DNA of 64,000 nt from Flammula alnicola. Lineage: Eukaryota; Basidiomycota; Agaricomycetes; Agaricales; Strophariaceae. The translations under genes were made by a program, and so were the position numbers. Below, one piece after another: positions 42,113-60,795 of the stretch. Positions within the stretch are counted from its first letter, which is position 1; every line of letters begins with the position of its first letter. The stretch is taken from NCBI GenBank assembly GCA_015499995.1, contig JADNRV010000038.1:186001-250000 (forward strand). The letters run 5' to 3'. The notes below the pieces were generated by a model. It did not search any database and was not told the DNA's origin. It saw only the letters and a list, made by a program, of their open reading frames with translations.

Positions 42113-42415
42113 TCAGAAAACCCCATCACTATCATCGTAGTCGTCCTCAGAATCTTCTTCGACTGCTGCTGCAATATCTCCCTTCCTTTTCTTCTTTGAC
42201 TTCTCCCACTCCAACCTCTCTGGACATTCAGACTTGTAATGCCCCTTCTTGTCGCAGAAAAAACAGGTAATGTCAGCTGCAGCCTGAGTGGTGAGACGTG
42301 AAGTCCTCGAGGTAGCACCGCGAGTAACAACCATTGCTTCGTCGTGTTCATCCTTGGAGTTGTCGTCACCATCGGGTTTGGCCTGGCGAACCTCCTCGTT
42401 AAGTAAGCGAGCCAC
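42113..42415 (-). pseudogene. Retrotransposon gag remnant with zinc knuckle
   Basis: Minus-strand fragment with one CCHC knuckle (CFFCDKKGHYKSEC), preceded by ARLLNEEVRQAK and followed by a basic-acidic tail. This matches the 3' end of a Ty1/copia-type gag. The fragment starts exactly where the big element's left end begins, and no gag 5' half is found beyond the right end. No protease, integrase or reverse transcriptase is present. Confidence 0.6.
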
Positions 42416-42422
42416 ATACCTT

Positions 42423-42575
42423 TGTTACAGTGTACCGTATAATATGGTACACCGAACGTGTACAGTGTGCCGCGTGATACGGGTTCAGCGAATTCGCTGA
42501 ACCAGTGAATAACGTACTATACATAATTAGGTAGCTAGTGTACTACATAATATGATACACCGAATTCGCTGGAGC
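42423..42575 (+). repeat. Left terminal inverted repeat of the KDZ element
   Basis: Aligns with the reverse complement of 59813-60000. Contains a 22-bp perfect palindrome at 42482-42503 (GGTTCAGCGAA/TTCGCTGAACC) and a partial one at 42559-42572. Compared with the right end it has one GTACAGTGTGCC unit rather than two. Confidence 0.85.
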
Positions 42576-42923
42576 CACGTTCAACATGTCTAATGCACCT
42601 CCATAGCCGATTTCCGTAGGTTGGGGCAATCGGCACCCAAAATCGGGGCTGCTGTACATATAATAAGATCCATAGGGAATGCTCGGGAGCACGATGGGTC
42701 AGTCGGCATTGAATCGGCACTGCTGATTTGCATGAATCAGCGTCAGTCGGCACTTAAGAGCAGGGTCGGCACTTGAGATCGGGGATGCTTATGTCGATTT
42801 GGCCTTGCTGTTTTGCTTGAATTGTTGCCCTCGGCACTGAAAATCGTGCTGAAAATCGCGTGTGGCAAGATATGAACCATTAAAAATACAAAATACATCA
42901 ACATATATCGATGTTCCGATAGA

Positions 42924-45173
42924 CTACTCTGGGATGCCGTCGTCACCAAACCACTCAACTGGGAGAAAGGTGAAGTCGAGGGCATCATATTCAGGCCGAG
43001 GGAGAGTGAATCGCGATGGAGTGGCGCTGAAATCGGCTGGATATGTGCCACCGATGCATGTGCGCTGTCGGGATCGGCATTGTCGTCGGAATCGGCACTT
43101 TCATCAGCTCCATCAGCCTCATCATGCTCATGCTCATGCTCATCGCTGGTGCTATCCTCATCCTCATTGCTAGTACTATCATCCTCGTTGCTGTCATCCT
43201 CTTCCTCATCGCTATCGTCCTCTTCCTGTGAATCGGCAGCGTCGTCACTTTGATCGGCATCGGCACCTGGGGAGTCGGGCACGGCCCCTCTGTTGAGCCA
43301 GGCATTGTCAGTATTGGGCATCCTGCGATTACCTCCATCGTCTGAATGTGTGGCATACCAGTTATCGACTGTAACTTCTGCAATAGGTTGGCCATCAGAG
43401 AATGGGTTTGGAGCTGGAGGAGGACCGGCATCCTCATGCGCAAGCCACCGTGAGGCGACCATTTCGGCCTCAAGATTGTCATCCGACGAGGTGTCGGAAT
43501 GGGTTGGAGCTGGAGGAGGACCGGCATCCTCATGCACAAGCCACCGTGAGGCGACCATTTCGGCCTCAAGATTGTCGTCCGACGAGGTGTCGGAATCGGC
43601 AGTCTCATCTGCAAGCCACCTGAGGCGAGAGTGTGGGCATCAATCACCTCCTCATCTGTTGACTCCCCTGCGTCGTCGTCGCCATGTTGCAACAACCATG
43701 CAGCGCCAACAGCGGCAGGCGATGTTGAGGCGGCATCGGCATCGGCATCGGCGTCGGGATCAGCAAGCCAGCATGGGGTGACAGCCTGAGCCGAGATGGA
43801 AGGTTGGTAGGGTGCTGCATGCGAGGTGCCAGCAGTGCCATGTGCAAAAACCATGCAGCGGCAACAGTAGCAGCGTCAACAGCAGGCGATGGTGGGGGCT
43901 GATCGGCAGCGGGGGCATCATCCTTATCGGCAAGCCATCGTGAGGCGATACCAGAGATGGATAGTTGGGAATCTTGGGATGTGGTTGTCTTCGTGTGGAA
44001 CGACCCGAAGTGTGCAGGAAATTGCAGAGTGGTAGCTGGAGGTGGGGTGTCGGCATCGGCAGACACCAAGCTGTATCGGGCTGTGCCGTTTGGCGTAGTG
44101 GGGCTGGCCACTGAAAATTCCCCAAGCAATTTCGCTTCCCTGATGCTGGTATTGTACCCAGATCGAAGGCGTTGCTTGGCGAAATGGCGGAGGTCGAGAA
44201 CATCTGCTTTCGTGAGGCGCTCACCCCAGGTCCACTTGAATGACGTGGGCGGCATGGCCTGAAGACGTCTCAGGTCTGCCTCTGCAGCCCCGGCGACCTG
44301 CCGAATCAACTCGCGTCTTTCCGAATCAGAAATATCAGCCGAGTCCGATGCCGATGCCGATCCAGATGTGCGTGCCTCCTTCAGAATAACTTCTCATGCA
44401 GTATGTAAAAGCCTGCTGCCCGACGCGTGGCGATAGCGACTTTGTTGCGTGATAATTCAGCCATGCTAGATGCGAAGTTCTTCAGACTCCTGAGTTCACC
44501 CAGGAGATCAGCAGCAATGGTGTGGTTGGCCGCGCACCGGCTGCAGTCGGCATCGGCATCGGCATCGGGTGTGGACGGTTGGAAGGGAGGAAGGGGGATG
44601 ATCTTTTGAGCAATCGACCCTGTCGCATCCATTTGTCGCTGGAGGCGGTAGTGTGTGAGGCACGTTTCGAGTGTTATGGCCGTAAGAAGCTGACGGTCGG
44701 CAGGCTGGCGAGTCATCATCCACCAGCTGAGGTGATAGTCCTTCACGACTCTCCAAAACTGTTCCTCCGTGGTGCCCACATCCAGCGTAGCAATGAAAGC
44801 CGAATTGAATTCAACCGGCAGATCGGCATCGGAGACCATCGCCAGGCTGTCAGCAAGTGACCGCAGCACGATCGGCACTTCGACGATCTGCCCGACTCCG
44901 GTCGCTATTCCAATGTATGACATAATAAACATCTTGAAGACCTTCAGAACTGGACATTTAGGCAAATTCAATGAAACTACGCACTAGTTCACGTTGCAGG
45001 CACCGCTGCATCCACTCTTGGTGCCGACCGTCGGACTTCGTTATGACAGCAAGGGCTTGCCGAAATCTTGACTCGCCATAATATATGACTTCCTGGACCT
45101 TGATGTGCCAGTTTTTATTTGAGCCATGCTGCAGATTGAAGGGGTTGAAGGTGCGGATAGAGTGGGAGGACAT
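42924..45173 (-). CDS. KDZ-element accessory gene A (unknown function)
   Basis: Starts at ATG 45173 (MSSHSIRTFNPFNLQHGSNK), 88 bp downstream of the transposase stop on the same strand. Exons continue at about 44960-44381 (GVGQIVEVPIVLRSLADSLA; SMAELSRNKVAIATRRAAGF), 44309-about 43870 (FKWTWGERLTKADVLDLRHF), and on through a long acidic region to the end EYDALDFTFLPVEWFGDDGI before TAG at 42924. The middle repeats a motif of the type ASRWL-x-x-x-DA followed by prolines at least four times, two of them in a recent 96-bp tandem duplication. Runs of Asp-Ala come from the GCCGAT hexamer. No known domain is recognised. Frame joins around 43620-43860 are uncertain. Confidence 0.55.
43404..43596 (-). 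repeat. Tandem duplication (97 + 96 bp) in accessory gene A
   Basis: Units 43404-43500 and 43501-43596 are nearly identical and each encode one ASRWL motif unit with its proline-rich tail. Confidence 0.9.
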
Positions 45174-48100
45174 TTTCACAGTGACAGTAATAGTGATAGA
45201 TGGATAAGATAAAGGGTTCTGCAAATTTTGTGATAGTAGGGTTAACAAATTAATATATAATTATAGTGGTGATTCATAATGTACATTTGTATTTTTAAAT
45301 GATTTGTCAGATATAAGTGCCAATTGACGCCACATGACAACTTTCCGATCGGCATATGCAGCGGCACCCGCAGTGAGAGGCCGACCACTGGTTAATGCCG
45401 ATTGCCAAGTCTTGCTCTTATGCATGAAATAACGCACGGTCCATTGCATCTCATACCTGACCAATATACACTCTTCACGCCATCTTTGAGTTTGCGCTCG
45501 GGCACGCAGCCAGTGGACACGTTTGACTGAAAATAGTTCAGGCAGGAATTGTTTATGGTGCAGAGGATCACTTACATTCCAGAATGGTTGCCGGGTCGGC
45601 ATCCGCTAAATCGGCATCGGCATCGGGCAAGATGTGACGTCTCACGGAATGCCAAATCCACGAAAGCTGGAGTGTTGTTGACCCTGGGGTGTTCGGCCGT
45701 AGAACGGCGGTGCTGGCTTTAATGTCTTCCTTCTTTAATAATCGGAATTTTTGCAAGGTTGCTTCATCAGCATGGAGGAGAACCAGACGGGCTCGGCATC
45801 GGCTGTAGACCTGGCAATGAAATGATATCCGCATGTTGAGATCCTTGACGGCGGCTCGACCCCGCGTACGGACCCCTTTTCGAGGTGCTGCCCGAATGAC
45901 ATCGGAGTATTGAAAGGATTTCTCGGCAATGAGTTCCCGTAACTGATTGAGGTGAGCTTTTGCCTGAGTTTTTCTGAGCGCTAACTCAATTTCATCGTAC
46001 ATGGGCCCGACATTTCCATTTGAAGGAAGGCAAAGTGTCTGGCGTTCGACAGGAATATCGTCATCAGCCGATGCCGACTGTTCCTCCGCTGCCGATGCCG
46101 AGTCGGGGTCTGGCGTAGCATCGCCGTCATTGATACCCTCAGCTACGTTGTCCCAATCCTCCATTGTCTCATCTTGCTCTGTCGTATCTGACCGTGTGGA
46201 CTGGAATGCACCTGCTGCAGCCTGAAGGCGGGCCAGCTCCGTCAGTAGGGGTGCCAAAGCTTTTCGGAGCTTTTCCATTTGCTGCCGATCGGGATCCCGA
46301 GGTTCACGTCCGAGTTGGCGTACACGCTGTCGAATATCCATTCTGGAATAGTTAGCACAAAGCAAGGCAAAGCGAATGAAACTTACTGTTTTTCCTCAAT
46401 CATCAGTGCAAACTCCAGCCAGATTTCAATTGCCGATCGGGGCCGATTAGCTGCCGATGCCGATTGGTCATCCGTCCCATCGGCCACGCGTGCCGCGTAT
46501 ATATCCATAGCCTTGGGATCGGTCAGTCGTCTTGCCTCGGCATCCTCAATATCAGTTTTCCAGCGTTCCACTGCTTGGGGACCAGCAGCTTCAGAGAGTT
46601 CAGTGAAATACTGTTGAAGATTGGCAAGGTTTTCGGATGCCTCTATGTGCCGTCGGCATAAAACTTTGGTTATGCGAAGCATCTTTTTATGGTTAGAATC
46701 ACAAGCAGAATCATCTATCACTTCCACACGATGCGCCAAGGTTGCCGTGCGTACGGTGGGAGAGATCGCATTCAATTCAGACCACAAAGGTTCCAGAATC
46801 TCGCCGATGGTCACAGCGGCGTCGGGAATAAATGAGGTAGCGTAGCGGAAGAAACATTCGTCTTTGTGGGCATGGACATGGAAGAGGCCGATCGCACGGT
46901 CGACCTTGAGGCCGGTCGGCAGCCGATTGCCGATTCGCTCTTGCAGGTGAACAAAGTACTGGCAGGCGATGTCGTAGATGATCATCACACCCTGGTCAGG
47001 ATCTACCCGAGTCGTTTCGAGTGCTTTAAGCAACGCAAAGTCCACATTCTTCTGCTGTTCACCCTTGAACAAATCCACGAGCGCGTTCGGCGCATAGCAA
47101 CCATGCCGAGCGCATGCAATGCCGACTAAGCCAGTGATATCACAGGCCGATGAGGCGAGTAGGGCGTTCATGATGGCCCTGAATGTATTTTCACACGGTG
47201 CTTTCTGACATGCGAAGTCAGTGTAATGAATCGGCATCGGCAGGGTGCCGACCACATAATCTTACCGTCAGTCTCTCAATTGCTATCTTGAGGAACGCGA
47301 AATATTCTTCACGCGTGGGGGCCATTCCACCACCTTCCGAAAGCCAAACATCTTTGGATGGCTTGGCCTGCCGAACATGGTCGGCCTTGAAATTGCCATC
47401 GGCAACAAAGACCCGTTGATACACAGCTCTGCAAGTACAAGTTAGGCATGCGCAACATTTTTACAATATCGTACCTGTTCAAATCATCTTTCCAATTGTC
47501 CGGCAGATTTATGCCGGGTTGAGGGCATGCCGGACAGTAATTCGCCAACTCCCCGGGGCCGACGTTCATTGGGTCTTTGCCATTGTGGCCGTAGCCAGCC
47601 CACTTCAATTTCTTCATCCATCTCCACAAACGGCTCATCCTTTGAAATTCGTTGTATAAATCCACGACGTCGGCCGGTGCCATCGGCATTGTCAATCGGC
47701 GCAGTAGCTGATAGAACTGATATGCCGATGCCTTCAGTTCCAGATTGCATAGTCGGAAGTAGTCGAGTGCCTGTGCCGAAAACAATGTGCGAATCCTGTG
47801 AAAACTGGCTGGCAGCAGTCGGCATGCAACAAGGTCGACCGGCAGTTGATCGGGCCCACGGCATCGGCATGATACCATCGCTAAATGATGGATGCCATTG
47901 GTATGCACTACCCGGACATAGGAATTGTTGAATGCATCGGCTGTAGGAATGTGTCCGGAGGTGCCACCTGACTGATCACCTGCGAACAAGTCCGCAGTGG
48001 GAGCGGCATCGGCATCGTCATCAGCGTTGGGCGTGGAGGCAGGTAGGAAGGCAAGGCAGCTACATCGGCATCGGCATCACCAACAACCGTACTGTCATCG

Positions 48101-49159
48101 GCCTCAGTGAAAAATACCGACTCCTCAATCGGCTCATCATCGAGGCGAGTTTCCTGTTGGTGATGCAAGTCATCTAGGTATTGTTGAAAGGTTTCATCCT
48201 CCATTGCCTCTGCGGCCTGATCTGGAATCCCGAATCCATCGTCTGCATCACGCATCTCAAAATCGACATTGATGCCCTGCCGATCGCCTCCCCCCTGCGA
48301 TGCCGATGCCGATCGGCTCAGATCCATCTGCTCGGTAGCGTCCTTTTGACCCTCGAACTCTTCAAGATAGTGTTTGTAAAACTTCAAAGTATCGCACAGA
48401 GGCTCGCCATCGTAGTGGCGCACAAGAATGTAAGTGCCGACCTCCCATAACTCGGCCGATCGGAAATGTGTGCCGGTCCATCGCTGTATTTTATGCATCG
48501 GATTGTCTTGATGTGTGTGGCGCATGCATTTTCGACACAGAGGGCTCGCCAGACTACAATCCTGGCATCTCCAGACTGCGTGAAGATTCTCATTACAGTG
48601 TGAACATCTGGAATGTTCAATCGGCAATGCTTCCCGGCATCAGGAAAAACACTTTTTCCCCAGGTCTTCCCAAGGAACTCCTAGGGCAGCCTAAGAGTGC
48701 TAGGTCAGTCAGGGTGCTCATATGCTCTTGGGCGTCAGTTAGGAGATAACTTTTCTTTAGGGTAACCTAGGGCGTCCCTAGGACACCCTAGGACGTACTG
48801 GAGGCAACCTAATGGTTTCCTAGATTTCAGTCAAATTTACTCAGAGTGTCCTAGGATAGCACAATTGATCTTAGGATTGGGTCAATTTGCATTTATTTTG
48901 CCCTGTAGTACCCTTGCTCAGCCTCTAAGCACACATTCACAGTAATTTTGAATCAATATATATTATAGTACAATACGGTACAAGGGTTATTAGATAAACT
49001 ACATAACTATCTATAGTTACATTTAATACATATCTGCTAAGCTGTCACCTGCAGGTACGGGTCAAAGCCCACGTACCTGCAATCTGCATGTACCCATCGG
49101 CATGAATGACAGGCAGAGAGGTGGGAAGCCATCTCTGGTTTCAGTAACCTCGACGACAA

Positions 49160-49400
49160 TACCTACACAAAAGAGGGGTGGGGGTTAGCAGCAGCGCAGG
49201 CGGGAGGTGGGCTGCTACGTACTTGGTGGCATTTATCATATCCCTTCCTCCCTGCTCCCACTGTGGTTTTGTGTCCAGTTTCAGTACCCTCGTTGTTATT
49301 ACCTGCACGAAAGAGGGATGGGGGTTAGCAGCGGCGCAGGTGGGGGGGTGGGCTCCTACGTACTTGGTGGCCTCATATTCCTCCCTGCTTCTGCCATGCT
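49160..49400. repeat. Direct repeat inside the nested element
   Basis: Two copies (about 49163-49262 and 49308-49390) share AAAGAGGGATGGGGGTTAGC-like, GCAGCGCAGG and CTACGTACTTGGTGGC words. A weaker third copy (GACGTACTGG) follows at about 49414-49460. Confidence 0.8.
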
Positions 49401-49954
49401 TTTGTAGTATCAATGTTAGCGGGGGCACAGCACTGGCAGGGTTGGGCTGTGACGTACTGGTTTTGGCACCCTTGGCATGTTTGGGTTGTACAGACGACAT
49501 TTGAGGTTGTGCAAATGGGCGGCAGTGCGAATCGGTGGCGGCACAAAGGGATCGTGGTGGTGCATCTGGTATATGTACAATGTTTGACATTGAAGAGGAG
49601 ACAAGGAAATGTCTCCTCGTATGACCTGTGGGTGGATTGGTGAGTCGGAGCTAGGGGCAGCGAGAGCAGAATGGAAAACAAGTCATATGACTCATCTCGC
49701 GACGCACCAGGTGGGTCTCCCTCTTCCAGGGCCTCCCCTTATTGTATATGATCTGTTTCTATCATCTACTCCTCTCAAAAGTTGGCCCACATCCCTAACA
49801 CGGGGAGGGGTGCAAACACCATCAGTGCAGTTGTTCAGTTTGGGCGAGGAAAGAGGGAGGGAAGATGAAGCGTAAGGTGAAGTTTGACTGCCAAACGAAA
49901 GTTCAACATGTCAGGTGACCCTCAATTCCAAACTCCGTTGGAGATGACTAATTT

Positions 49955-51040
49955 TCTGACTTAAGGAATTTCGCAAAGCTCAGATATAATCAGGTGACTA
50001 AACGTGTCGCGTCGCGCTCTCAGTTTCGTTGATTTCTGTGACGAATTTGCGACATGCATGTCGCAAATTCGTAACACCTTGCTGGATCATCACTCCCTCG
50101 GACCCTCTTTGCGACTCTGCGTTTGTCTGGCCAATCCGGTCATTCTCGGAAACTGCCGGATTACGGATCAGCAACGTTGAACGTTGTCGATCTTCGACTC
50201 CACGCCCTTCACCTCAACCCACTCTCTCTCGTTCCCCCTTCTTGTCGAGGGATATAGGTGGGCAGCAAGGGGACCGAGCGATCAAGGGGAGGCCCTAGTA
50301 GAGGGGGACCCACAAGGTACGTGAGCGGAACGAGTCGGCAGCACCGACTCGTTCCGCACTTCTACTTCAAACCACACACAGGGCGCTCACCTCTCCCCAC
50401 AGCTTGTACGAGGAGACGACGAACTGCTGTTCGTCGTCTCCTCAGATTCGAATGTCGTCTGCATCAGACGACGTTCGAATCTGTGCTTGGGACCTCGACC
50501 ACGGCCTTACACCACCCGCAAGCCCCATCCGCTGCGCCCTTTGGCGTCGCATACCCCGGCTCGTCATCCCGTCACCATCACCCACCGCCCACTCCCCTCG
50601 ACGATGAATCCACGACGCCCCAGGTGCATCGGCGATGACCCCAGATGCCGCGGTTGCATCGACGACGAGCACACGGTGCCGCGGGGCATCGACAACGACC
50701 CCACAACACCCCGGGTGCATCGACGACGAGCCCACGACGCCGCAGTTGCATCGTCACCGAATCCATGATGCCGCGGGTGCATCGACGACGACATCACCGT
50801 GCACCGCCAGCGTCTCGCCCAACGGCTGCCTACACCACCATCCGCTGCGCCATTTGGCGTTGCACACCCTGGTTCGTCATCTCGTCACCTTCACCCACCG
50901 CCCATTCCCCTCGTAACCAAGCCGTCGAGCGTGTCGCGTATGCGACACGTTCTATGAATCCTCCTTCACCACCCCACTACTCACCACCCTTCTACTTACA
51001 GGCCGAAAGAGGAGACGACGCCGTCGTCGTCTCTTACATT
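49955..51040. repeat. Series of hairpins and palindromes
   Basis: In order: a 32-bp perfect palindrome at 50041-50072 (arm ACGAATTTGCGACATG); a stem of 14 bp at 50325-50357 (GCGGAACGAGTCGG); a stem of 15 bp at 50410-50443 (GAGGAGACGACGAAC, loop TGCT); a stem of 19 bp with one mismatch at 50443-50483 (CAGATTCGAATGTCGTCTG, loop CAT); an 8-bp stem at 50930-50949 (CGTGTCGC); and a 9-bp stem at 51012-51033 (GAGACGACG). Several share the GGAGACGACG word. Confidence 0.85.
50590..50810. repeat. Decayed minisatellite, GGGTGCATCGACGACG family
   Basis: Imperfect units of about 30 bp built from GCATCGACGACGAGC and CACGACGCC words repeat through this stretch. Related units reappear at about 51550-51680 and 52265-52450 (GGGTACAACAACGCCAC, GGGTGCATCAACGACG). 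All six frames are open in places only because the unit length is near a multiple of three. Confidence 0.75.
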
Positions 51041-53268
51041 CGCGTTTGTCCTGGCCGCCACCCACCATCGATCATGGGTGCTCGCTCACCAAGCGCCCCC
51101 CACCAGCTACCCGGTTCCAACTGCAACACCACCACGACCGCCGCCGCCCCTCGTCCCAGCCTCTGCCACCCACTGCCCTTCCTCCAGGCTCACTGCCACC
51201 CCCTACTACCTTCGTTTTCGACATGGTGCCCCGCTCCCCAATCACTGCTACCCTACCATCCTATCGACTCTACCCCCTGCATCCACGATGGAGAGGGGAA
51301 CGAGAGCTGCACGACCAGCGCTGCTTGGATATGATGAGGATGAAGACCAGCCGCTGCTGCGTGGATACAATGAAGGCGAGCCGGAGATGGACCCACCGCT
51401 GTTTCAATATGACGATGAGGGCCGCCACCGCCGCCACCGCCGTTTCGATCCCACGAGGCGGATGCCCTCGCGGAACTCTCGTCCATCGTCCGAAGCTCCG
51501 CGAGCAGCAGCGGACACCCTGGCTTGTGCCCTTCAACGCCTCTGCCCACCTCGTTGACCGCTGCGGGTGCATAGACGCCGCGGGTACAACGATGACGACG
51601 CTGCGACAGCGAGGGCATCGACGATGAGCCCACGATACCGCGTGTCCAACTACGACGATGCCACAGCGGTGGGTGCATCGCAACTTTCCCCAACCCGAGC
51701 TATCACCCATGCTCGAGTGCTGCCGCATTCCCCCACAACGTCCGCTACCACCACCGTGCACTGCATATCTTCCTCCCCACTGCACCCCAGCGACATGCCC
51801 GCGCTCATCAATACCTCCATGCCCAGCTGGTCTACCCTGAATGACTTCTCCTCGCTCTCATCCTCCGCCGTCCCACGCCTGCTCGGCCACAACGCTCTCG
51901 TCGGGCTCACTGTTCAGTACCAGCAGCGGTGGTGCTGGCACCAGTGCCGGCGGTCTGCCTTGCACAATCCACGCCTTCAATGCATCCGCCGGCTCCGACT
52001 CGTTCTGCTCCAGCCCTCCAGCTCCACCGCCCAAAGACTACCCATCTACCAACAGCATGGCGGGATTCCCCCGCCACCACCATTTTGATATAATGACGAC
52101 CACCACCACCTGCCAGTGAATTCACTCGAAGCGGGAGCAGCGAGGCGAGGTAGGCGCAGCGAGGCGAGGTAGGTGCAGTGATTGAGGTGACAGCAAAGGG
52201 GCGGGCGGGTGCAGTGACGGCGAGGCCAGGTGACAGCAGGACGATGCTGCCACCGCTGCAACAATGAAGCTGTGATGGCGGGTGCATTGACGCTGCGGGT
52301 ACAACAACGCCACGGGTACAACAACGCCACGGGTACAACACCGCAGGTGCATCCACAATGACCCCACAATGACCCCACAACGCCGCGGGTCCAACAATGA
52401 TGGTGATGCCGCAACGGCGGGTGCATCAACGACGGGTGCATCAATGACGATGTCCCAGCGACGATGATGACGGCCCAGTGACAGTGTGAGCAAACATGGA
52501 AGACGTCAGATAATGTTTTAGATACAGCATCAAGTTTCCTACTAAAAGTTCTTATTTGTATCAAACACTTTGGTAATATAATTTTACATTATGTAGCTAT
52601 AAAATGAATTGTATTTGGAAAAAGGCCATCTAGATTCTTAGACTGCTCTGAAAGTGTCATAGGATATATTAAAATTGATACAACCTTCTGGGAAGTCTCC
52701 TGGTGTCACAGGAGTGTCATAGGATATATTAAAATTGATGGAACCTCCTGGGAAGTCTCCTGGCGTCACAGGAGTGTCCCAGGGCACATATAGTGCCCTG
52801 GAATGCCCTGGTAGTATGTCTTTCAGCCTAATTTTCCTAGGATGACCTGGGGCAAAAGTGTTTTTCCTGATGGGCTCAGTAGGGCTTCCAACAAATCGTC
52901 GATGTGTTCCACAAATTGTATTATGTAGTCCTTTTGGGTCTGATTCACGACATTAATAACATTTGCAGCATGAGATTGATCCATACCCTCACCTTGCGCT
53001 GCTTTGGATCGGCAATCAGCTCGGCATCGGGCATGTCGACATCGTTTAGAGTATAATCTACCTCATGGTGCGATGGTCCGGGAGGGGGTGTTTGTGCAGG
53101 TTGAGACTCCTCTGGAAGGAGAGCTACTTTCACTTTTGTTGTTTTTTGTTTTCCTGATCGTGTGGTAGTCGTCACTTTCTTAAATGTAATGGCGTCAGCT
53201 GCATCGACATCACCCTCCACCAAAATATTTCTTCGTCTCCTCGGACGCTTGCCTGCTTGAGAGCTCAT

Positions 53269-53461
53269 GGTACCGGAGGAAAGAAGATTTCGGAAAAGAT
53301 AACCGTCAGAATGTTTTTTTGTTATCGCCAGATGATCGGAATTTTTCTTTTGTAATGGACAGATGATCGGTCCTCGTGTTTTTATTTTCCATGTGATGAT
53401 ATATAAAGATAGTTTACATTTGGCCGATTGCTTCTTGTCAAAAAAAGACCTCTTTCTTCCC
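53269..53461. promoter_or_regulatory. Bidirectional promoter of the KDZ transposase and accessory gene B
   Basis: Only 193 bp separate the divergent start codons at 53268 (minus) and 53462 (plus). Two related words, AGATGATCGGAATTTT and AGATGATCGGTCCTC, at about 53330 and 53361, form a direct repeat. TATATAAAG at about 53399 is a TATA candidate for the rightward gene. Confidence 0.6.
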
Positions 53462-55734
53462 ATGTCAACACCAGCTTTCGATATCCCAGACCGCCCGGAT
53501 CGCCGCAAAACATTTTACAGCAGTGAAGAGCGGGCAGTGATTGATGTATATAAAAAGGAGTACCTTGAAGCAACATCGGCCACTGCACGCAAACACATTG
53601 CGCAAACCCAGATCTTCCCAGATCTATTCAATTATTGGGCTCAGAAAGAGATGGTCGACCCGGCTGATACTCAGACCCGGGCAAAGGTATTCATATTCAG
53701 CATCGACATATAATATATACAGCTCCACTGACAAAAACTAAAAAGGATCTGTCGCGTTGGCTACACAATAATTGGCGTTCTCCTCATTCGTCTGAGACAC
53801 AATCCAGCTTCACAATTAAGCGAACAGAGGTGGTGTGGAAGACAAGGCAGGAAGAGGTGTGGACAGAGATTGCAAAGCTACTTGGGGTTGAGTCGGCAAA
53901 CACAAGGACCACGGGGTGGTTTGAGACTCGTATGGTCGCTGTGCATAACATTATCGGGCGCATGACAGCCGAGGAGAATGCAGAACTTGATGAAGATGTG
54001 GCGAGAATGTCCAAGGAGGGCCATTCCGAGGAGCACAAGCGACAGTAGGTGCCGAGCCAATGCCGATGCCGAGTGACTGACGAACCATCGGGATACCAGG
54101 ATTGCTGAAAAACGCTGGACACGCCGTTTCGATAAAGACGCGAAGAACCATTACCTAGAGATGGGGTTGCTTACCATCTCATTCGTATCACGCATGACTC
54201 CTGATGGTCAATTGGCAGTTGAAGTGTGAGCCGCCCACCTAATGCTGATGCCGCTGCCGATGCACACAAACTAAACATTCAAAAGACATGATCAGATAGC
54301 CGATCTCTTAGGAGCCCCAACCACCTCCTTTGAGAAGCAGCATGAACGGCAGGTACTGGAGATGAAACGCTTGCTCATGACATATGTGCAGACTGTCCAA
54401 GCTACCTTAAATGGCCCCGGCACCGTTGGTGGAATTGGAGCAGCACAGCCGACCGCAACACCACAGCTGCAAGTCAATGCCGATGGCTTTCCTCAACTAC
54501 CATCACCATTCAAAGGTGACTCATACTCTAAAACACAACTGGAGGAGTTGTTCAGACATTATCTGTCACACTACTATCGTACGTGTTCATTTCTGCCATG
54601 CCAAGTGCCGATTGCCGATTGCCGATTGCTGTGTTAGATATCGCAACCAGGGCCGAAGTCGGCATGTGCCGTACAAATGCCTGGCCAGTGACCTATACAC
54701 TTATATTAAGCCTGAGTACTTGCCGAACAACTTCAAGATACTCGAGCCGCGCAACATGAAGCGCAAAGAAATCATAGCATTTTTTGAACACATCGCTTCC
54801 AGAGAGCTGACTTATAATATCAGCGAAGTCTTTGCTTTTCACAGTGTTAATAGTGGACGGAAAGGGAATCAGGTAGTACACAGGGTCGATGCCGATGCCG
54901 ATGCTGAACCCACCCCTCCACGCGCAAAGCGCAAGAGGAAAGCAAAGAAGGCTGCAACTACCGATCATCCCATCGAATCCACTGCCCCACAGAATGAGGA
55001 TCCTACAGCCAATGCTGACATTGAACCTCAGCCACCAAAGCCTAAGCCTAAGAAGAAAAAGAAAGGCGTGTCAGAGGTTGCCGATCCGCCACCCCATGCC
55101 GATGCCGATGCACAACAAACTCGCCCGCGGCCGAAACCGAAGCCCAAGACGAAGAATAAAACCAATCAAGCTGTAGACCCACCAGCTGACAAGACAATCC
55201 AATCAACAACACAAGATGCCAATGCGGCAGCAAATGTCGATGACACAGGTACTGCCGATGCAGACAGACAACCCCGTCCGCGACCGAAGCCAAAGCCGAA
55301 AAAGAAATCAAATGCGGTTAACCAGAGCAATGTGAGTGGGCCATTGGAGCACGACGTGAGTCATCCTTACTGTATGTAATTGACATAGTATGCTGATTGA
55401 CAAACGTTGCAGGTGCCGATATTGAGCGCCAATGTACCACAAATGCTGATCAATCGGCCACTGGAAGACCACGATCCAAATCATATGCAAACACTTCGCA
55501 ATGAAATCCCAGATGAGCTCATTGATCCCGTGCTGCACGCAGCATCGGCATTGGCTATTGCCGCTCAGAACACTGCCGATCCGTCAGCCGGGTCGGCGAC
55601 CATGGTCCCCAACAATCACATGTAAAAGCTACACCAAGGAAACCAGTCAATACTGCTGATGAGCTAGCTCGTATTGAAGCAAGTAAATATGCTGTCACTG
55701 GTAAAAGAGAACGAGTGCGCCGAACGAGAGAATA
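53462..55734 (+). CDS. KDZ-element accessory gene B (charged, nuclear-type protein)
   Basis: ATG 53462. Exons 53462-53686, 53746-54044, 54100-54225, 54286-about 54564, about 54638-55357 and 55414-about 55734. The N-terminal half is a conserved Agaricomycete segment: TFYSSEERAVIDVYKKEYLE, IFPDLFNYWAQKE, DLSRWLHNNWR and TGWFETRMVAVHNIIGRMTA. The C-terminal half is a series of basic KPKPKKKKK-type blocks alternating with Asp-Ala runs encoded by GCCGAT. Basic patches suggest nuclear location. The last block (ATPRKPVNTADELARIEASK to RRTRE) needs a one-base shift after NNHM at 55625. The donor near 54564-54579 is uncertain. Relatives recalled from other mushroom genomes are unannotated; I cannot give a function. 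Confidence 0.6.
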
Positions 55735-55895
55735 GTTTGAAGACGCCCCGATGCCGATGCCGATGCCGATGAAACTTCAGATCACAACGAGAACACCAAA
55801 CTGTCGTATACTGAATTTTTGTATATACTGTCAACTATATGTATATACAAACAAGAATCATCTTTACAAAAAAAAACTGTCCAAAAAACGTCACC

Positions 55896-58424
55896 CTATC
55901 CATCTATGACCATGTCCATGTCCGAGCCACTGTTGCCAGGTGCCGGTCCCGGTGCCGGTGAGAGTCGAGGTGACCTGCGAGGCGGACCTGGAGATGCAAC
56001 ACGCTGTCGACGAGCACGAGGAGATGGCGATCGTGATACATGACTGTCGACGACCGCAAGGTGCATATTTGCTGGGGCCGAAGGGGCCGACAGTGCTGCA
56101 GCACTGGGAGGCGGCGGACCAGGTGGTGGGGGTGGTTGCATTGGCGGAGGACCTGGAGGAGGAGGTGGTGGTGATGGAGCTGCACGAGGAGGAGGAGATG
56201 GTGGTGGTGATGAGGCGGGACCAGGAGGTGGGTGCGGCAGGGGTGACGAGGGACCAGCCGGTCTACCTACTTCTGTCTGTGGCGACTGCGGTGTGGCTGG
56301 AATGACCTTCACCTGTGGGGGGGCCTGATGCGAGCATTGTGGTCGTGCAGTAGCTATTACCGTCGGGGGTTCAACCAGCCTCACTGGATGGGAGCGCGGT
56401 GCTGCCGATGCCGACTGTGGTCCCGACTGGGGGTGGCCGACTGGGGTGCTGCCGACTCGCCTGCTGCCGACTCAGGTGCCGACTCAGGTGCTGCCGACTC
56501 GCGCGCTGCTGCCTCGCGAGCTGCAACTCCGCTTCTGCCTCCAGCTCTTCCTCCTCAGCATCCACAGCTTCTACATACTTGCGGAGGGCATCTGGCCTCA
56601 CCTGGTAGACACGATCCATTTGCAGGCCTGCGTACAGGACGACGCTCTGTTGGGTTGTCCTCGGAATTCCGAAGTAGTCCTCCAACCCAATTAGCCGGTC
56701 CTCCAGGGTCAGGCGCTTCACCTCCTTCTCCTCCAACTCTTCTCGAAGCTCCTGAAACTGGACATCCATGCTCAGGCGCTTCTCCTCCTGCTGCTCCAAC
56801 TCTTCTCGAAGCTCCTCTCGAAGCTCCTGCCACCTATCGTCCACGATGTCAACTTGTCCTCGAGGTACACCAATGCCGACTGTACCTTCCCCAGCCAGCC
56901 CTTCGTGTCCTCCGGTTCTGTACTCGCCTTCGCAGCCTGGGCATTGAGCGCTTTCTCCATCCTCGTCAACCTCGCCTCGATTGCCTTCATCCTGTCCTCC
57001 ATCGCGCGAGTCGGCATCGGCATCGGCGCACGAGACGCGCGATCGGCATCGGCTTGCCACGCATTGTAGTCGGCCTCAGTCGCTATCGTGTAAACCATTT
57101 GTTAGTATGCTCATTAGTCTGCAGAATGAACACTTACCTTTCCGTTTCCCCTTGTCTTTACGTGGCCCCCCGCGTTTGGGCTGACCGCCGATCGTCGATG
57201 TGGGTGCCGGGGCCGATGTCACTGCCGACTGCTTCGGCGTACTGACCGCACCTGATGGGCCACTCTCTTCGTCCGTGTCTGTGACCACTTCCTTGCTCTT
57301 GGGTTCCTGTGCACGCTTGGTGGTGCGCGCTTTTTTCTTCGGCCCCGCTGCCGACTTCAGCGTCGCTGCCGGCTTCGATGTCGCTGCCGACTTCTGCACT
57401 CGCTCTCCGCCCCACACACACTTCACCTTGTGCCCCCCGCAGTTCAGGCATGAGGTAATGCCGTGGAGCTGCTTCTCGCATGCCTTATCCAACCGCTGGC
57501 AACGGTCGCAGCGCGGGTCGTGGTAGGTGCCAGTGCCGATGGGCTTCGCCCTCTGCTTTCCTTTCCTCGTCACGGCGCTCGGACTTCTGCATCCTCCTCC
57601 TCCACTTCCTCCTCCTCCTCCTCCTCCTCATACTCGTCCGAACTGTCCTCCCGTTTGCGCTTGGCGACTTCGGCTGGCATGACCCGCGGTGGCCGTTGAG
57701 CCTGGATCACCCGCGTCTGCCGAGTGGGTCCTGGTTTGGGTTTGGGTGCAGCTGCAGGTGCCGGTGCCGATCGGTCGTCGTCGACCTCCATCCTCTCCAA
57801 AGACCCTAGGCGCCGTATGGGCCGAGGAGCTGCAGCGGGCTGTTGGTGACGGCTAATGGGACGAGGAACTACAGCGGGCTGCTGCTGATGGCTAACCGTC
57901 AGGTTCGCCATCTCCTCAGTCGGTAGTCGCACCCGACCTCCAGTCCGCGCTTCGTTCCTCGCAGCCGATCCAGTAGCTGGGGCTCTGACCGGCACTTCCT
58001 TCATCGGCGCCGATCGTCCTGCCGATGCTACAATCGGCGCTTCCCCCCTCACAGCTGACCCTGATCCTGATGCCGCCTCCACCGCTTGCTCCTTGTCAAA
58101 CTTTGCAAGGGCCTTCATTTGCTGTACCCGGAATTCTTGATCAATTGCTTGCCGGTCTCTGGCCGGCATGTACTTCTTCACAAAGCGGTAGAAGAACCGG
58201 CTGACATCGAACTCGGCCTTGAACTGGCCCGTCTGTAATGTTTTGAAAATTTCACTCTTTTTGTTTGTTAGTGGTATATTCCATGTACTATCTATCGCAC
58301 TCACTATATCATGTTCGAGTCCGCGCAAAACTGGCTCGATGTTGTCATCTGCAATGGACTGCCGAATGGCGGCATCGGCAGTGTTGAGGGCAGCGCGCAG
58401 TGATTCAATGGTGGTGAAAGGCAT
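55896..58424 (-). CDS. KDZ-element accessory gene C: Zn2Cys6 cluster plus coiled coil
   Basis: ATG 58424 (MPFTTIESLRAALNTADAAI). After an intron near 58307-58263 comes FKTLQTGQFKAEFDVSRFFY, then a basic/acidic region ending in a poly-Glu tract (about 57600). A zinc cluster at 57418-57510 has C-x2-C-x6-C-x9-C-x2-C-x6-C, the exact Gal4-type Zn2Cys6 spacing, preceded by the basic stretch TRKGKQRAK. Heptad-rich coiled coil follows (ALNAQAAKASTEPEDTKGWL; WQELREELREELEQQEEKRL), as dimerisation helices do in Zn2Cys6 factors. The C terminus is proline-rich and stops at 55896. One-base shifts are needed near 57580 and 56830. By family, such proteins bind CGG triplets in DNA; here it may act as a transcription factor or a transposition cofactor. 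Confidence 0.6.
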
Positions 58425-58650
58425 TTCGGTGATGCAAAAGAGGTGCGTTGGTGGTTGTGTAGAGAGATCGGCGTCGGCAGGTGTAGTAGCAAGGACGTAG
58501 GACGAAGTCGTGTATCGATCAACGATGAAAATCGAAAATCAACCATCACGTGATAGTGTACACAGTGCCAAACGTCTATTTTTGTCAATTTACCGATGAG
58601 ATAGTAGAGATCATAGATCTTACCCTTGCCTCAGTACGACCATCACCACC

Positions 58651-59378
58651 ATGCAGAAACAGAGCAATCAGCGCAAGTTGGCAACGACCATCAGCGATAT
58701 TCCCGAAGGCTTTACGATCGGCACCGGGCCCGATGGCCAACAATACCTGGTACCACAGTACATGGTGCCGGCGTTGGACCACGCCTTTGCATCGTACCAG
58801 AGTAAAGCAGATTTGGGTGTTTCGAATGCACCAGGGGGGGTAAGTGCTCATTTTTGCGCTTACTCTGTCGATCGCCCATCCAAAGTGACAATCGGCATTC
58901 GACAGCCCGATCGGCAGTGAGACTGATCGGCACTTGCTGTGTTGATCGGGCGTCTATTGTTTCGCACGTTTTCTTACCATTCATTTCAGTCATCACAGGC
59001 GATGAATCGGCCTTTTTCTGGTCTTCTAGGTGAAGGACAGCTCATGTTTCCACCAGACCCAGTAAGGCCGGCATCACTGCTTTGACCATATATCGGCTGA
59101 CTCCCCAACAGCAATTAAGTGACCATGAGCGCCTCACCTTACACGCAGAGGTCCTCGCACTACAAGAGAAATTAGGCATTTCCTATAAAGATGCCTCGCA
59201 TAGGCTGTATATGGCAGAACTCGAGAAGCTCAAAGTTGCCGATGAAACATACAAGGCCTTCAAGAACCTTGACAGTCGCATCGCGACCTCCCTCAAAACC
59301 CTGCAGGCGCAGTTCGGAGATCCCAAAGCTAACGCAGAGGCTGATGCCGAGGTCATTCCCGATGCCGATGCCGAGTAG
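58651..59378 (+). CDS. KDZ-element accessory gene D (small helical protein)
   Basis: 175 residues from exons 58651-58839, 58990-59061 and 59112-59378. All joins are in frame with consensus sites. It starts MQKQSNQRKLATTISDIPEG and contains GFTIGTGPDGQQYLVPQYMV, a short proline-glycine middle and a helical second half (DHERLTLHAEVLALQEKLGI; YKDASHRLYMAELEKLKVAD), ending in Asp-Ala repeats (DADAE). It is an intact gene with no known domain. Its 150-bp first intron contains at least four copies of the ATCGG word. It lies divergent to gene C with 226 bp between start codons. Confidence 0.65.
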
Positions 59379-59812
59379 TTTATTTTTTGTACATTATCAC
59401 CATAGTCCAAAGATTTTGTCCTACCCTTCCATTCGTGCACACCTAAGGTCCACCTTCAATAAAAATAGCAGCTCAGCTGATCCAATTTGGGTCACCTTGT
59501 CAGTGCCGACTGAGATTTAGCGCACATCGGCAGTGCTGCCATTTTAGCCAGTATCGGCAAGGCTGATGAAATTCAGCCAACGTTCAGCAACGCCGATCCA
59601 ACGTAACTACATTGCAATACTGATCTAATTCCAAGCATCCTGAGCACTGTATTGACCACATTTAGTGGACATTATGACTGCCGATCTCATTGTGAGCGCG
59701 TCGGCATTGCCGATCTCATTTTGGGCGCGTCGGCATTGCCGATTTCATTTTGGGCGCGTCGGCATTGCCGATGTACGTGTATTGGGCCCATCAGACATAC
59801 ATGCAAATAAGG
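59379..59812. other. Right subterminal region of the KDZ element
   Basis: Non-coding, with many TCGGCA/TGCCGA words (for example 59503, 59527, 59553 and 59679), mirroring the left subterminal DNA at 42600-42870. It contains the 29-bp tandem repeat listed next. Confidence 0.7.
59681..59767 (+). repeat. 29-bp tandem repeat, three units
   Basis: Units 59681-59709, 59710-59738 and 59739-59767, each starting CCGAT(C/T)TCATT and ending GCGCGTCGGCATTG. Each contains one GCCGAT/TCGGCA pair. Confidence 0.95.
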
Positions 59813-60000
59813 TTCCAGCGAATTCGCTGGATCACATTATACGGTACACTGTACTACCTATTATGGACAGTACATTATTCACTGGTTCAGCGAATTCGCT
59901 GAACCCATATCACACGGCACACTGTATGCGTTCGCTGAACCCATATCACACGGCACACTGTATGCGTTCGCTGTACCATATTATACGGTACACTGTAACA
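59813..60000 (-). repeat. Right terminal inverted repeat of the KDZ element
   Basis: Reverse complement aligns with 42423-42575. Contains palindromes at 59815-59830 (CCAGCGAA/TTCGCTGG) and 59884-59905 (same 22-bp palindrome as on the left), and a 36-bp unit repeated twice at 59895-59930 and 59931-59966. Confidence 0.85.
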
Positions 60001-60795
60001 TGCCTACCTGTAGACGACCGGATGGCTTCATGGAGATGTCCAGTCTGGTGTGACTGGAGCGCTGATTGTTGGAGAGCAGCAGCGAGTAGGTTGAAGAGAT
60101 ACACTTTTTCGTCTTCTGTGACAGTATGATCTGCAGATGTTCGAACGCGCAGGGAATATATCAAACGAAGCAAGGGAGGTCCTTCGACTGGAAATTCCTG
60201 GACAAGGAGCAACCTGATCAGAGACTTGAGGTCGTCTAAGTGTTCCTCGCTAGAAGAAGAAAAGCGTCCAAAGGAGCCTCCAGAAGTTGTTTCCTCCTTG
60301 TCACCCGTCAGGTTATCCACATTGCTATAACACGACTGAAGGAGGAATATCATCTCGCGTAGTCGAGGAAAGCGGTCATCGTTCAGGGGGTCGTAAAGAT
60401 ATTCCTCTAGGTTTGAACCATTTACTTTGAGAGTATGGGCCAATCGTTCTAGATTTGCGAAGTATTGCAACTTGATGCATGCTTTCAGTGGTACATTATA
60501 GGAAGATCTAAGGGATATACCTCGCGAGATATCTTGGCATCAATGTATACGATACCTGGACATGAACACAGGTAAGAGTTTCGTGAAAGACAAATAAAAA
60601 ACCAGGTGCTTGCCGTTTTCTTCTCGGATGTCATGAGTGACCATTAATCGTTCGAATAGTTCCTCAAAGTCAGGTAAAACCGTGCCATCCTGCACATACA
60701 TAAGTAGATTGAGCAGCTTCGTCAACATCAATAAAAGGCCCAGTCACCTCCGAACCAATCAATGAATACCAATCCTCATCCTGAGTGATCACCAT
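60001..60795 (-). pseudogene. Unidentified leftward gene cut by the right end of the KDZ element
   Basis: ATG 60795 (MVITQDEDWYSLIGSE), intron 60747-60690, exon from 60689 (DGTVLPDFEELFERLMVTHD; LVFYLSFTKLLPVFMS), another intron near 60555-60475, then YFANLERLAHTLKVNGSNLE and LIRLLLVQEFPVEGPPLLRL, ending at 60008 with a GTAGGC donor. The element begins seven bases into that intron, so all downstream exons are missing. I recognise no domain. No continuation is found beyond the element's left end. Confidence 0.5.

Follow-up and report, generated by a model that had tools for sequence, protein, structure and literature searches.

A short DNA word repeated throughout a KDZ transposon of Flammula alnicola, and a candidate zinc-cluster protein to read it

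A KDZ (Kyakuja-type) DNA transposon in the genome of the basidiomycete Flammula alnicola carries an element-wide DNA signal, the word TGCCGA(Y), which has been retained at synonymous sites of exons, within introns and spacers, and also by gene-free relatives of the element. Each related KDZ family of this genome favours its own word, a point that goes beyond the preliminary description of this DNA. The window (the whole stretch of DNA analysed) comprises 64,000 nucleotides of contig JADNRV010000038.1, and coordinates refer to it unless another copy is named.

The element and its repeated word

The transposase of the element (Table 1) matches PF18758 (E=2e-37, 129.4 bits, cut-off 26.6) and, through its CxC2 cysteine cluster, PF18803 (E=1.9e-17), and its segments are conserved in a copy of family B, C854 (tblastn). 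The preliminary description had placed the hexamer at 42600-59800 of a 17.6-kb element; the limits of the element (Table 1) were read from the terminal sequence of gene-free relatives, the ends being fixed from the relatives C136 and C33, both with 7-bp TSDs. Such TSDs, together with CA...TG ends, were seen in C136 (CCTTGCT), C33 (GGCAGGA) and C9 (GAACATG), none was found for C2, and none was seen for the window copy, although its CA...TG ends are present. The TIRs of the window element match each other over 153 columns at 84%, plus a terminal 36 bp at 97%. Gene 1 is conserved at 43797-45173 in C854 and at 43890-45173 in C357, the remainder weakly or not at all, and a Pfam search gave no match for two of its ORFs.

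Table 1. Features of the element (positions in the window)
Feature	Position	Strand	Basis or remark
KDZ (Kyakuja-type) transposon, 17.6 kb including 4.2-kb nested insert	42413..60010	.	starts CACATACCTTTGTTACAG, ends CTGTAACATGCCTACCTG
Left TIR, outside word zone	42426..42576	+	self-match; same TIR in gene-free relatives
Zone of GCCGAT copies (113 without nested insert)	42606..59772	.	word count
Gene 1, unknown family	42927..45173	-	tblastn segments; limits approximate
KDZ transposase with CxC2 cysteine cluster, broken by nested insert	45264..53268	-	Pfam; start codon by eye
Transposase intron, 3 words	47205..47265	-	splice sites
Nested element interrupting transposase gene, word at chance	48641..52869	.	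2 GCCGAT in 4,229 bp
Gene 3, unknown family	53462..55376	+	tblastn segments; start and end by eye
Gene 3 intron, 3 words in 55 bp	54045..54099	+	splice sites
Gene 3 intron, 1 word	54226..54285	+	one of several fits
Gene 3 intron, 3 words	54587..54637	+	boundaries by eye
Gene 4, Zn2Cys6-like protein, proposed word reader	56371..58424	-	limits by eye
Zn2Cys6-like cysteine cluster CX2CX6C...CX2CX6C	57418..57510	-	pattern
Gene 5, unknown family	58651..59378	+	tblastn segments; start and end by eye
Gene 5 intron, 3 words	58840..58989	+	3' end by eye
Right TIR	59811..59962	-	self-match

As the preliminary description had claimed, the hexamer GCCGAT (ATCGGC on the other strand) saturates the element, with 113 copies in 12,972 bp (42600-48640 plus 52870-59800, the nested insert being left out), or 8.71/kb, against a mean of 9.2 and a maximum of 18 in 200 dinucleotide shuffles, and the runs named there were recovered at 43735/43741/43747, 44552/44558 and 55753/55759/55765. 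The scarcity reported for the nested element was also found (0.47/kb; shuffle mean 2.0 copies, 100 shuffles), the rest of the window being equally poor (20 copies in 46.8 kb, 0.43/kb; shuffle mean 24.3), and because these counts are close to the shuffle means, both are at chance for GCCGAT. Over the whole genome TGCCGAT occurs 10,135 times in 74.44 Mb (0.136/kb), far below its density in the element (80 in 12.97 kb, 6.2/kb), a contrast that rules out the genome-wide background as source of the word. None of the fetched loci of family A, to which the window element belongs, was without it: TGCCGA stands at 8.1-11.7/kb in the 16 whose transposase match is of A type (L009-L016, L020, L021, L023-L026, L028 and L037, which represent 11 insertions, some loci overlapping). 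The identity of the word had to be refined, since GCCGAT is enriched but the commonest hexamer is TGCCGA/TCGGCA, with 130 copies in the element (68 on the forward and 62 on the reverse strand). The core of the word, GCCGA, is preferentially preceded by T and followed by T or C, the commonest form being TGCCGA(T/C).

The gene-free relatives, of which there are at least about 11 insertions, have the same ends and TIR as the family A element and have kept the word. They are built of 163-bp tandem repeats, with 52-54 copies of TGCCGA per element compared with 1 each in the flanking sequence fetched.

Evidence for maintenance of the word at the DNA level

The proposal that the word is under DNA-level and not protein-level control is supported by synonymous shuffles, by the occurrence of all six frame/strand readings in coding DNA, by introns and by the gene-free relatives. 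In conserved coding segments of family A (18 pieces picked and trimmed by hand from tblastn segments, several others, including 43797-44303 and 55938-56411, being left out), TGCCGA occurs 56 times (8.4/kb), whereas 500 synonymous-codon shuffles that kept the proteins fixed gave a mean of 11.4 and a maximum of 21; among 1,851 hexamers it is the strongest outlier. The earlier statement that the word is read mostly as Asp-Ala was too strong: 17 of the 56 copies are read as Ser-Ala, 17 as x-Ala-Asp/Glu (8 of these as Asp-Ala-Asp) and 22 in the other four readings.

Exons, introns and spacers all hold the word, as had been noted, but it is present in only five of the 11 introns and absent from the other six, even though introns are the richest in it (13 copies in 666 bp, 19.5/kb). 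The boundaries of the introns at 53687-53745 and 54587-54637, like the 3' end of 58840-58989, were placed by eye, and for the remaining boundaries one fit was chosen out of several. Among the intron coordinates first given, 54045-54099 is exact and the donor at 58840 is right, while 47183-47241 was replaced by an interval that fits the splice sites (Table 1).

Words of related KDZ families

The related KDZ families of this genome favour other words, all built on a CCGA/CCGG core and all holding a CpG and a CGG triplet; the transposase loci compared are part of 97 matches and were not chosen blindly. Relative to dinucleotide shuffles, TGCCGA is enriched 14.6-fold in family A and 30-fold in the gene-free A elements, TGCCGA and TGCCGG 9.5- and 6.1-fold in the family B copy C854, CCGAGR 5.5- to 7.8-fold in families C and C', and CCGGA 3.8- to 5.7-fold in family E. 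The family E word rests on loci of 2.4-3.5 kb, where only CCGGA and TCCGGA stand out; the leading hexamers stay below the maximum reached in shuffles (12 versus 13 in C314, 11 versus 12 in C257 and 9 versus 10 in C261). The words are also partly shared, with CCGAGR at 5.9- to 6.7-fold in gene-free A elements, TGCCGA at 5- to 6.2-fold in C' and TGCCGG at 2.9- to 5.9-fold in E. Synonymous shuffles gave the same kind of result in two other families: TGCCGA occurs 24 times in C854 versus a mean of 6.7 (maximum 15 of 300 shuffles; one of 18 segments left out on account of stop codons or wrong ends), and CCGAGG 25 times in the family C copy C9 versus 8.5 (maximum 17 of 500; four of seven segments were first dropped for the same faults and the analysis was redone with five). 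In C9, CCGAGG is clustered within the TIR-bounded element (141503-152687), with 0 copies in the 4.5 kb to its left.

The transposase tree follows the words: the word-bearing families form one clade (100/99), in which A/B, C, C' and E are sub-clades. Inside the C branch there is a decayed copy, C268b, that has no word, and C357, of family B, is poor in words, with 2.9/kb at its transposase. At six distant KDZ loci of this genome no word rises above z 2.4 in dinucleotide shuffles, which rules out a word common to all KDZ elements. A fifth word type was considered for C415 (L029) and rejected; its transposase is C-type, with a KDZ row identical to that of C447, and the short repeat next to it is unrelated.

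Most C/E-type copies carry a TET/JBP demethylase and A/B copies do not: 16 of the 18 KDZ copies at 42-49% identity have Tet_JBP within 6 kb, compared with none of the 16 A/B copies, that of the window included. Since A and B are the richest in words, TET recruitment is not the whole story. Outside the words, the CpG observed/expected ratio is 0.83 and that of TpG+CpA 1.26, compared with 0.94 and 1.10 in window positions 1-33000. CpG protection as a simple sign was accordingly discarded, the ratio in elements being no higher than in window positions 1-33000, so that any protection from methylation would be incomplete.

A candidate reader, the alternatives and known systems

Gene 4 encodes a cysteine cluster resembling the fungal Zn2Cys6 DNA-binding domain. 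A 47-aa piece of the window protein matches Pfam Zn_clus (PF00172) with E=7.9e-4 and 19.9 bits, just below the cut-off of 21; other cut-out pieces gave E=0.02 (C) and E=1.2 (B), and the whole gene 4 protein of C268 gave no Zn_clus match in Pfam. The CX2CX6C-linker-CX2CX6C spacing is found in A, B, C and C', with a longer middle linker in C and C', and the best PDB match of a profile of three clusters is the Zn2Cys6 domain of AlcR, a weak one (E=0.076). In 9 of 11 A loci the zinc-cluster gene and the transposase are 5-11 kb apart, and the two were found side by side at 8 of 9 C-type loci and at 1 of 2 C' loci; no such gene was found near any of six E-side copies, although E has a word. The window gene 4 is frame-shifted near 57573-57627 relative to C854 and C268, both continuous there. 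No homologue of the C268 protein was found at E<=0.001 among 7,994 candidates scored from a large protein collection, and a single-sequence structure model of the window zinc region was poor (mean pLDDT 57, pTM 0.33) and was not used.

By analogy with the VANC system of plant transposons, we see about an even chance that the word is an element-wide binding site of an element-encoded protein, probably a zinc-cluster protein, that serves escape from silencing. The likeliest candidate for this reader would be the gene 4 product, which could cover the whole element between the TIRs at about 10 sites per kb, label it as the transposon's own and leave it accessible to transcription and transposition even where the host methylates DNA. 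In families C and E, such a reader, once bound to the word, could bring in the element's own TET/JBP 5mC dioxygenase; in A and B, TET might be supplied in trans, or another effector might act. Word and reader would change in step, so that each family would come to have a word of its own. A wider reading of the sequences, to which we incline somewhat less, is that of a KDZ clade with a DNA address, in which a family-own CCGA/CCGG-cored word, spread through exons (at synonymous positions), introns, spacers and gene-free satellites, would be recognised by a putative family-own Zn2Cys6-like reader that strips or blocks silencing element-wide, with TET/JBP carried by some families and dispensable in others, and in which word-reader co-evolution would insulate the families.

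Other origins of the word have to be weighed against a zinc-cluster reader. A by-product of protein-level selection (Asp-Ala linkers) or of codon bias could be suspected from Ser-Ala and x-Ala-Asp/Glu being the commonest readings (34 of the 56 words in conserved coding segments), but it is refuted by the synonymous shuffles and by the gene-free elements, introns holding the word as well, and we give it practically no weight. Whether selection or amplification spread the word had been left open; maintenance is now favoured, and tandem amplification also occurs. Neutral spread by hexamer slippage and gene conversion, leaving a functionless selfish microsatellite, would agree with the 57 of 130 TGCCGA copies that start within 12 bp of another, with the 163-bp tandem units of the gene-free elements, and with non-coding differences between copies, which are highest in the 10-bp flanks of words (11.9%) and no lower in word columns (5.5%) than at distant positions (4.7%). 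We nevertheless regard it as decidedly unlikely: the other 73 words are isolated by more than 12 bp, 102 distinct 3+3 flanks surround the 130 copies, and 29 words are present in one of two copies only, 23 differing by substitutions and 6 by gaps. Moreover, between two element copies 90 of 101 ungapped word sites are intact (0.89), compared with 0.76 of other CpG-holding hexamers (Fisher P=0.0017, the sites not being fully independent), which favours maintenance, and related families favour different words, that of C9 stopping near the element ends.

The word might instead serve host factors (nucleosome phasing, a host transcription factor or a host methylation target), as the CpG and CGG of all family words could attract host CXXC or Zn2Cys6 proteins; this is very improbable, because one host factor should favour one word, whereas several occur in this host, and six distant KDZ loci have none. 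Binding by the KDZ transposase itself through CxC2, body-wide and for transposition or synapsis, is unlikely, though less so than the other alternatives. Subterminal motif repeats are known in hAT and CACTA elements, the transposase too has a cysteine cluster that could equally be the reader, CxC2 varies from family to family (the 25 best matches listed against the C9 element do not include the A CxC2 exon), and gene-free relatives keep TIR and words, as expected of substrates moved in trans. Against it, the outer TIR has no words and mid-element exons and introns are full of them, while an enzyme of the cut-and-paste type requires its sites close to the termini. Apart from this placement, nothing here decides between the transposase and the gene 4 protein.

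A zinc-cluster reader would bear on two open questions, namely how a transposon distinguishes itself from host DNA and how a transposon-borne fungal TET/JBP is aimed. The genome offers a candidate code (the words), a candidate reader (gene 4), four word types side by side and, in the gene-free elements with TIR and word, natural minimal substrates, which together make the idea directly testable. If true, it would also be an example of a DNA signal so dense that it influences the make-up of the proteins encoded by the element carrying it.

Among known systems, TnpA of En/Spm is element-encoded, binds repeated short motifs and counteracts methylation; its motifs are subterminal, unlike the element-wide word described here. 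The founding KDZ paper is that of Iyer et al. 2014. In the literature covered by the search, namely title listings and passages of PMC12730594, PMC12810828 and PMC8889193, no report of dispersed words in KDZ elements was found, and the available text of PMC12730594 makes no mention of a dispersed word or a Zn2Cys6-like reader. For Kyakuja/KDZ elements with TET/JBP, that text proposes escape from methylation-based silencing (Kojima 2025, PMC12730594). The elements described here resemble these Kyakuja in KDZ transposase, CA...TG ends, 7-bp TSDs and, in C/E, TET/JBP beside the transposase, and differ in that A/B are without TET/JBP and in their long TIRs (those of the window element, 322 columns at 91% in C854 and 624 at 84% in C9), none being reported there for two Laccaria families. 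Fungal Zn2Cys6 regulators typically recognise CGG triplets, Pho7 binding single TCG(G/C)(A/T)... sites (PMC5559640); the CGG in every family word here is similar, although Pho7-type regulators are host transcription factors with promoter sites.

The closest parallel is found in the VANDALs of Arabidopsis, as described in the available portion of Hosaka et al. 2017 (PMC5735166). The elements are enriched in a short motif (YAGTATTAY for VANC21, AGTTGTCC/AGTTGTAC for VANC6) to which the element-encoded VANC binds, causing methylation loss; motifs differ between related families and have spread through tandem repeats, and VANC has highly variable regions. The VANC motifs lie in non-coding regions, and motif-free coding-region probes were bound much less (PMC5735166). 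In both systems each family has a characteristic short motif enriched in its elements, the words of different families overlapping to some extent in ours. Unlike the VANC motifs, the word here is also dense in exons, at synonymous positions, and has been retained by relatives that are gene-free, and the system belongs to KDZ and not MULE elements, in another kingdom, with a Zn2Cys6-like candidate protein and with TET/JBP in some families.

Element, gene-free relatives and word density

The element, a family A KDZ (Kyakuja-type) DNA transposon, matches the KDZ transposase (2e-37) and the CxC2 cluster (1.9e-17) in Pfam, and has terminal inverted repeats (TIRs) aligning over 153 columns at 84% and five genes, whose order is kept in C854, a family B locus. 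Coordinates are collected in the table.

Features of the window and of two related loci
Feature	Position	Remarks
Element, window copy	42413-60010	ends CA...TG, read from gene-free relatives; no target-site duplication seen
Nested element	48641-52869	4.2 kb; splits transposase coding sequence of the window copy; inverted ends CAGGAAAAACACTTTT...AAAAGTGTTTTTCCTG
Word-count region of element	42600-48640 + 52870-59800	12,972 bp
Gene 4 (Zn2Cys6-like product)	56371-58424 (-)	frame shift at 57573-57627 relative to C854 and C268, both one open frame there
GC-rich segment	33000-39000	0.53-0.67 per kb bin; + strand repetitive frame, Cys-Glu-Asp / Glu-Ala-Ile type repeats near 35449
C9, family C element	141.5-152.5 kb	TIR-bounded; CCGAGG confined to it save one copy near 153 kb
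C357, B-type element (L050/L018/L051)	190500-204500	1.8-kb inverted pair (97% identical) splits its conserved segments

The preliminary description held that GCCGAT/ATCGGC saturates the 17.6-kb element and is only scattered in the nested element and the first 39 kb, and the counts bear this out: 113 copies (8.7/kb) were found in the count region, against a mean of 9.2 and never more than 18 in 200 dinucleotide shuffles, while the nested element (2 copies) and the remaining 46.8 kb of the window (20) are at shuffled expectation. Genome and element densities, whose similarity would have spoken against a specific enrichment, are far apart for TGCCGAT (10,135 in 74.44 Mb, or 0.136/kb, versus 80 in 12.97 kb, or 6.2/kb). 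The identity of the repeated hexamer needs amending, since GCCGAT is abundant but the top hexamer is TGCCGA/TCGGCA (130 copies); the GCCGA core is preceded by T in 130 of 191 cases and followed by T or C in 153. The word, TGCCGA(T/C), is a sharp motif and not a cloud of decayed repeats, since, relative to background, neighbours one base off at positions 2-5 are found 0.5 to 2.7 times as often (1.7 to 9 times at the first base). Orientation is balanced (68 versus 62) and spacing not notably even (largest gap 872 bp, random mean 556, 95th percentile 782); the next word starts more than 12 bp away for 73 of the 130 words, which have 102 distinct 3+3 flanks.

Three gene-free relatives (C2, C136 and C33; 3.6-4.8 kb, GC 40-41%) have TIRs of the A type (100% identical over up to 46 bp), start with CACATACC and finish with GCCTACCTG, and at least about 11 such insertions exist genome-wide. 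Their longest stop-free frames reach 109 (C2), 118 (C136) and 179 codons (C33); those matches listed between window frames and these elements are either terminal or short. Each holds 52-54 copies of TGCCGA, with one in its fetched flanks. Two inverted arrays of 163-bp units make up these elements (units read in C136); 47 of 48 units contain at least one word, and column agreement is 0.924 in words versus 0.868 in the rest, or, for CpG columns (8 each), 0.846 versus 0.703.

Maintenance of the word at the DNA level

It had been proposed that the word is kept at the DNA and not the protein level, and a shuffle of synonymous codons, which leaves proteins and codon pool unchanged (n=500), supports this: 18 conserved coding pieces (6,648 bp) hold 56 copies of TGCCGA, against a shuffled mean of 11.4 and a maximum of 21 (z = 13.2, the top of 1,851 hexamers). 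Two reversed control words show no excess over expectation in the same sample, and a mild excess is seen for the near-word TGCCGG (14 versus 7.0 expected). All six readings are seen in coding DNA, Ser-Ala (17) and x-Ala-Asp/Glu (17) being the most frequent. The word stands at 8.4/kb in conserved coding DNA and at 11.0/kb in the rest; it is densest, at 19.5/kb, in the 11 introns, five of which have it and six do not.

Between the window copy and that of C268, 90 of 101 ungapped window words are intact (0.891), versus 0.783 of other hexamers (Fisher P=0.007) and 0.761 of other CpG hexamers (P=0.0017), the sites not being fully independent. When columns within a word of either copy are taken, so that gains and losses both count, non-coding differences are 5.5% in words, 11.9% in 10-bp flanks and 4.7% in other columns; words are therefore steadier than their flanks but, in non-coding DNA, not than distant positions. 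The coding values are 2.4%, 6.0% and 3.9%. Besides the 90 common words, 13 are private to the window copy and 16 to C268; opposite these 29 stands a substituted form in 23 cases (TGCTGA or TCAGCA in six) and a gap in six. In a comparison of ten A copies in the region near the transposase, 24 of the 47 word sites proved identical across all covering rows. Over about 3.9 kb of codon-aligned sequence, families A and B have 34 and 15 words, only seven in the same place, so that most positions turn over although the density is maintained.

Words and TET/JBP genes across KDZ families

At least 97 KDZ transposase matches of all kinds exist in the genome, and related families favour words of their own.

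Word enrichment by family, as fold over dinucleotide shuffles
Family	Loci	Enrichment
A		TGCCGA x14.6; x30 in gene-free C136 and C33
B	C854	TGCCGA x9.5, TGCCGG x6.1
B	C858, C630, C357	TGCCGA x6.1-9.4, TGCCGG x4.3-5.9
C	C9, C447, C59, C264, C534	CCGAGR x5.5-7.8; TGCCGA x0.8-1.7
C'	C49, C77	CCGAGR x7.2-7.8, TGCCGA x5.0-6.2
E	C257, C314, C261, C73	CCGGA x3.8-5.7, TGCCGG x2.9-5.9

The words overlap in part, since CCGAGR is also raised in gene-free A elements (x5.9-6.7). Six distant KDZ loci (C143, C201, C105, C412, C23, C556) have no word above z 2.4. A dense short repeat (GGAATCC, CACATGG), unrelated to the KDZ words, adjoins the C-type transposases of C415 (L029) and C548 (L031); GGAATCC is also raised in C357.

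In a transposase tree of 30 rows (C849, C281, C548 and C590 absent), for which the program warned of long branches among outer rows, every worded family falls with C268b in a single clade (100/99). Inside this clade, E, B, C and C' each form a starred sub-clade, and A forms one at 89/95. C268b, in which no enriched word was found, has a long branch and two stop codons in its transposase match.

The C9 element matches TET/JBP (PF12851, E=1e-15), and at least 32 such matches exist genome-wide (26 above cut-off). Such a match lies within 6 kb of 16 of the 18 transposase copies that are 42-49% identical to that of the window (C415, C447, C548, C59, C119, C9, C264, C314, C849, C257, C77, C49, C281, C590, C73, C261), the others being C534 and C268b (nearest 18 kb away), and of none of 16 A/B loci, some of which are on short contigs. 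Five further matches (C323, C235, C588, C779, C268:24478), nearly equal in score and frame length, are more than 15 kb from listed KDZ copies and are perhaps carried by another transposon.

A candidate reader and known systems

TpG+CpA is raised to 1.24-1.34 in families A, B and C (words masked) and in gene-free elements, compared with 1.10 in window positions 1-33000 and 1.11-1.19 in distant KDZ loci, suggesting that CpG decay acted on the elements, probably through methylation, and that words persist despite it; values are also high outside worded elements (1.31 in the C9 left flank, 1.21 in the nested element). The results show a code that is maintained; in the simplest model, the element-wide word would be a binding site for a protein encoded by the element, which, once bound, could counter silencing.

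The candidate reader is the gene 4 product. A Zn2Cys6-type cysteine pattern is present in the family A gene 4, in the corresponding genes of B and C, and in C', and is retained in the A subgroups C147 and C129. Pfam Zn_clus scores on cut-out pieces are E=7.9e-4 for A (19.9 bits, below the cut-off of 21), 0.02 for C and 1.2 for B, and the whole C268 protein gives no Zn_clus match; a three-row profile against solved structures returns AlcR first (E=0.076). Zn2Cys6 proteins as a class are described as typically binding CGG triplets (PMC5559640), and CCG/CGG lies inside every family word. Searches place gene 4 near the transposase at 9 of 11 A loci (not found at C429, nor at C174, where the contig stops short of the expected place), and beside it at 8 of 9 C-type loci (C9, C447, C264, C415, C548, C590, counted as C-type on the basis of its gene 4, C59 and C119; not found at C534). 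It is near the transposase of C49, a C' locus, and was not found at C77, the other, where the transposase is near the contig end, or near six E-side copies (C314, C257, C261, C73, C281, C849); further copies are on contigs without a listed transposase.

Kyakuja elements are reported (PMC12730594) with 7-bp target-site duplications and CA...TG ends, both present in C136, C33 and C9, but without TIRs, which the window element has. Of the known systems, VANDAL/VANC in Arabidopsis comes closest, VANC being an anti-silencing protein. VANC is variable, and likewise the Zn-cluster protein (C268, C147, C129; L047, L068, L069) diverges far more between A subgroups than the transposase does: pieces of gene 4 of C147/C129 are 54-69% identical to the C268 protein, their transposase 98% to that of the window. 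VANC motifs are reported to lie in non-coding regions (PMC5735166), whereas the element's word also occupies coding DNA.
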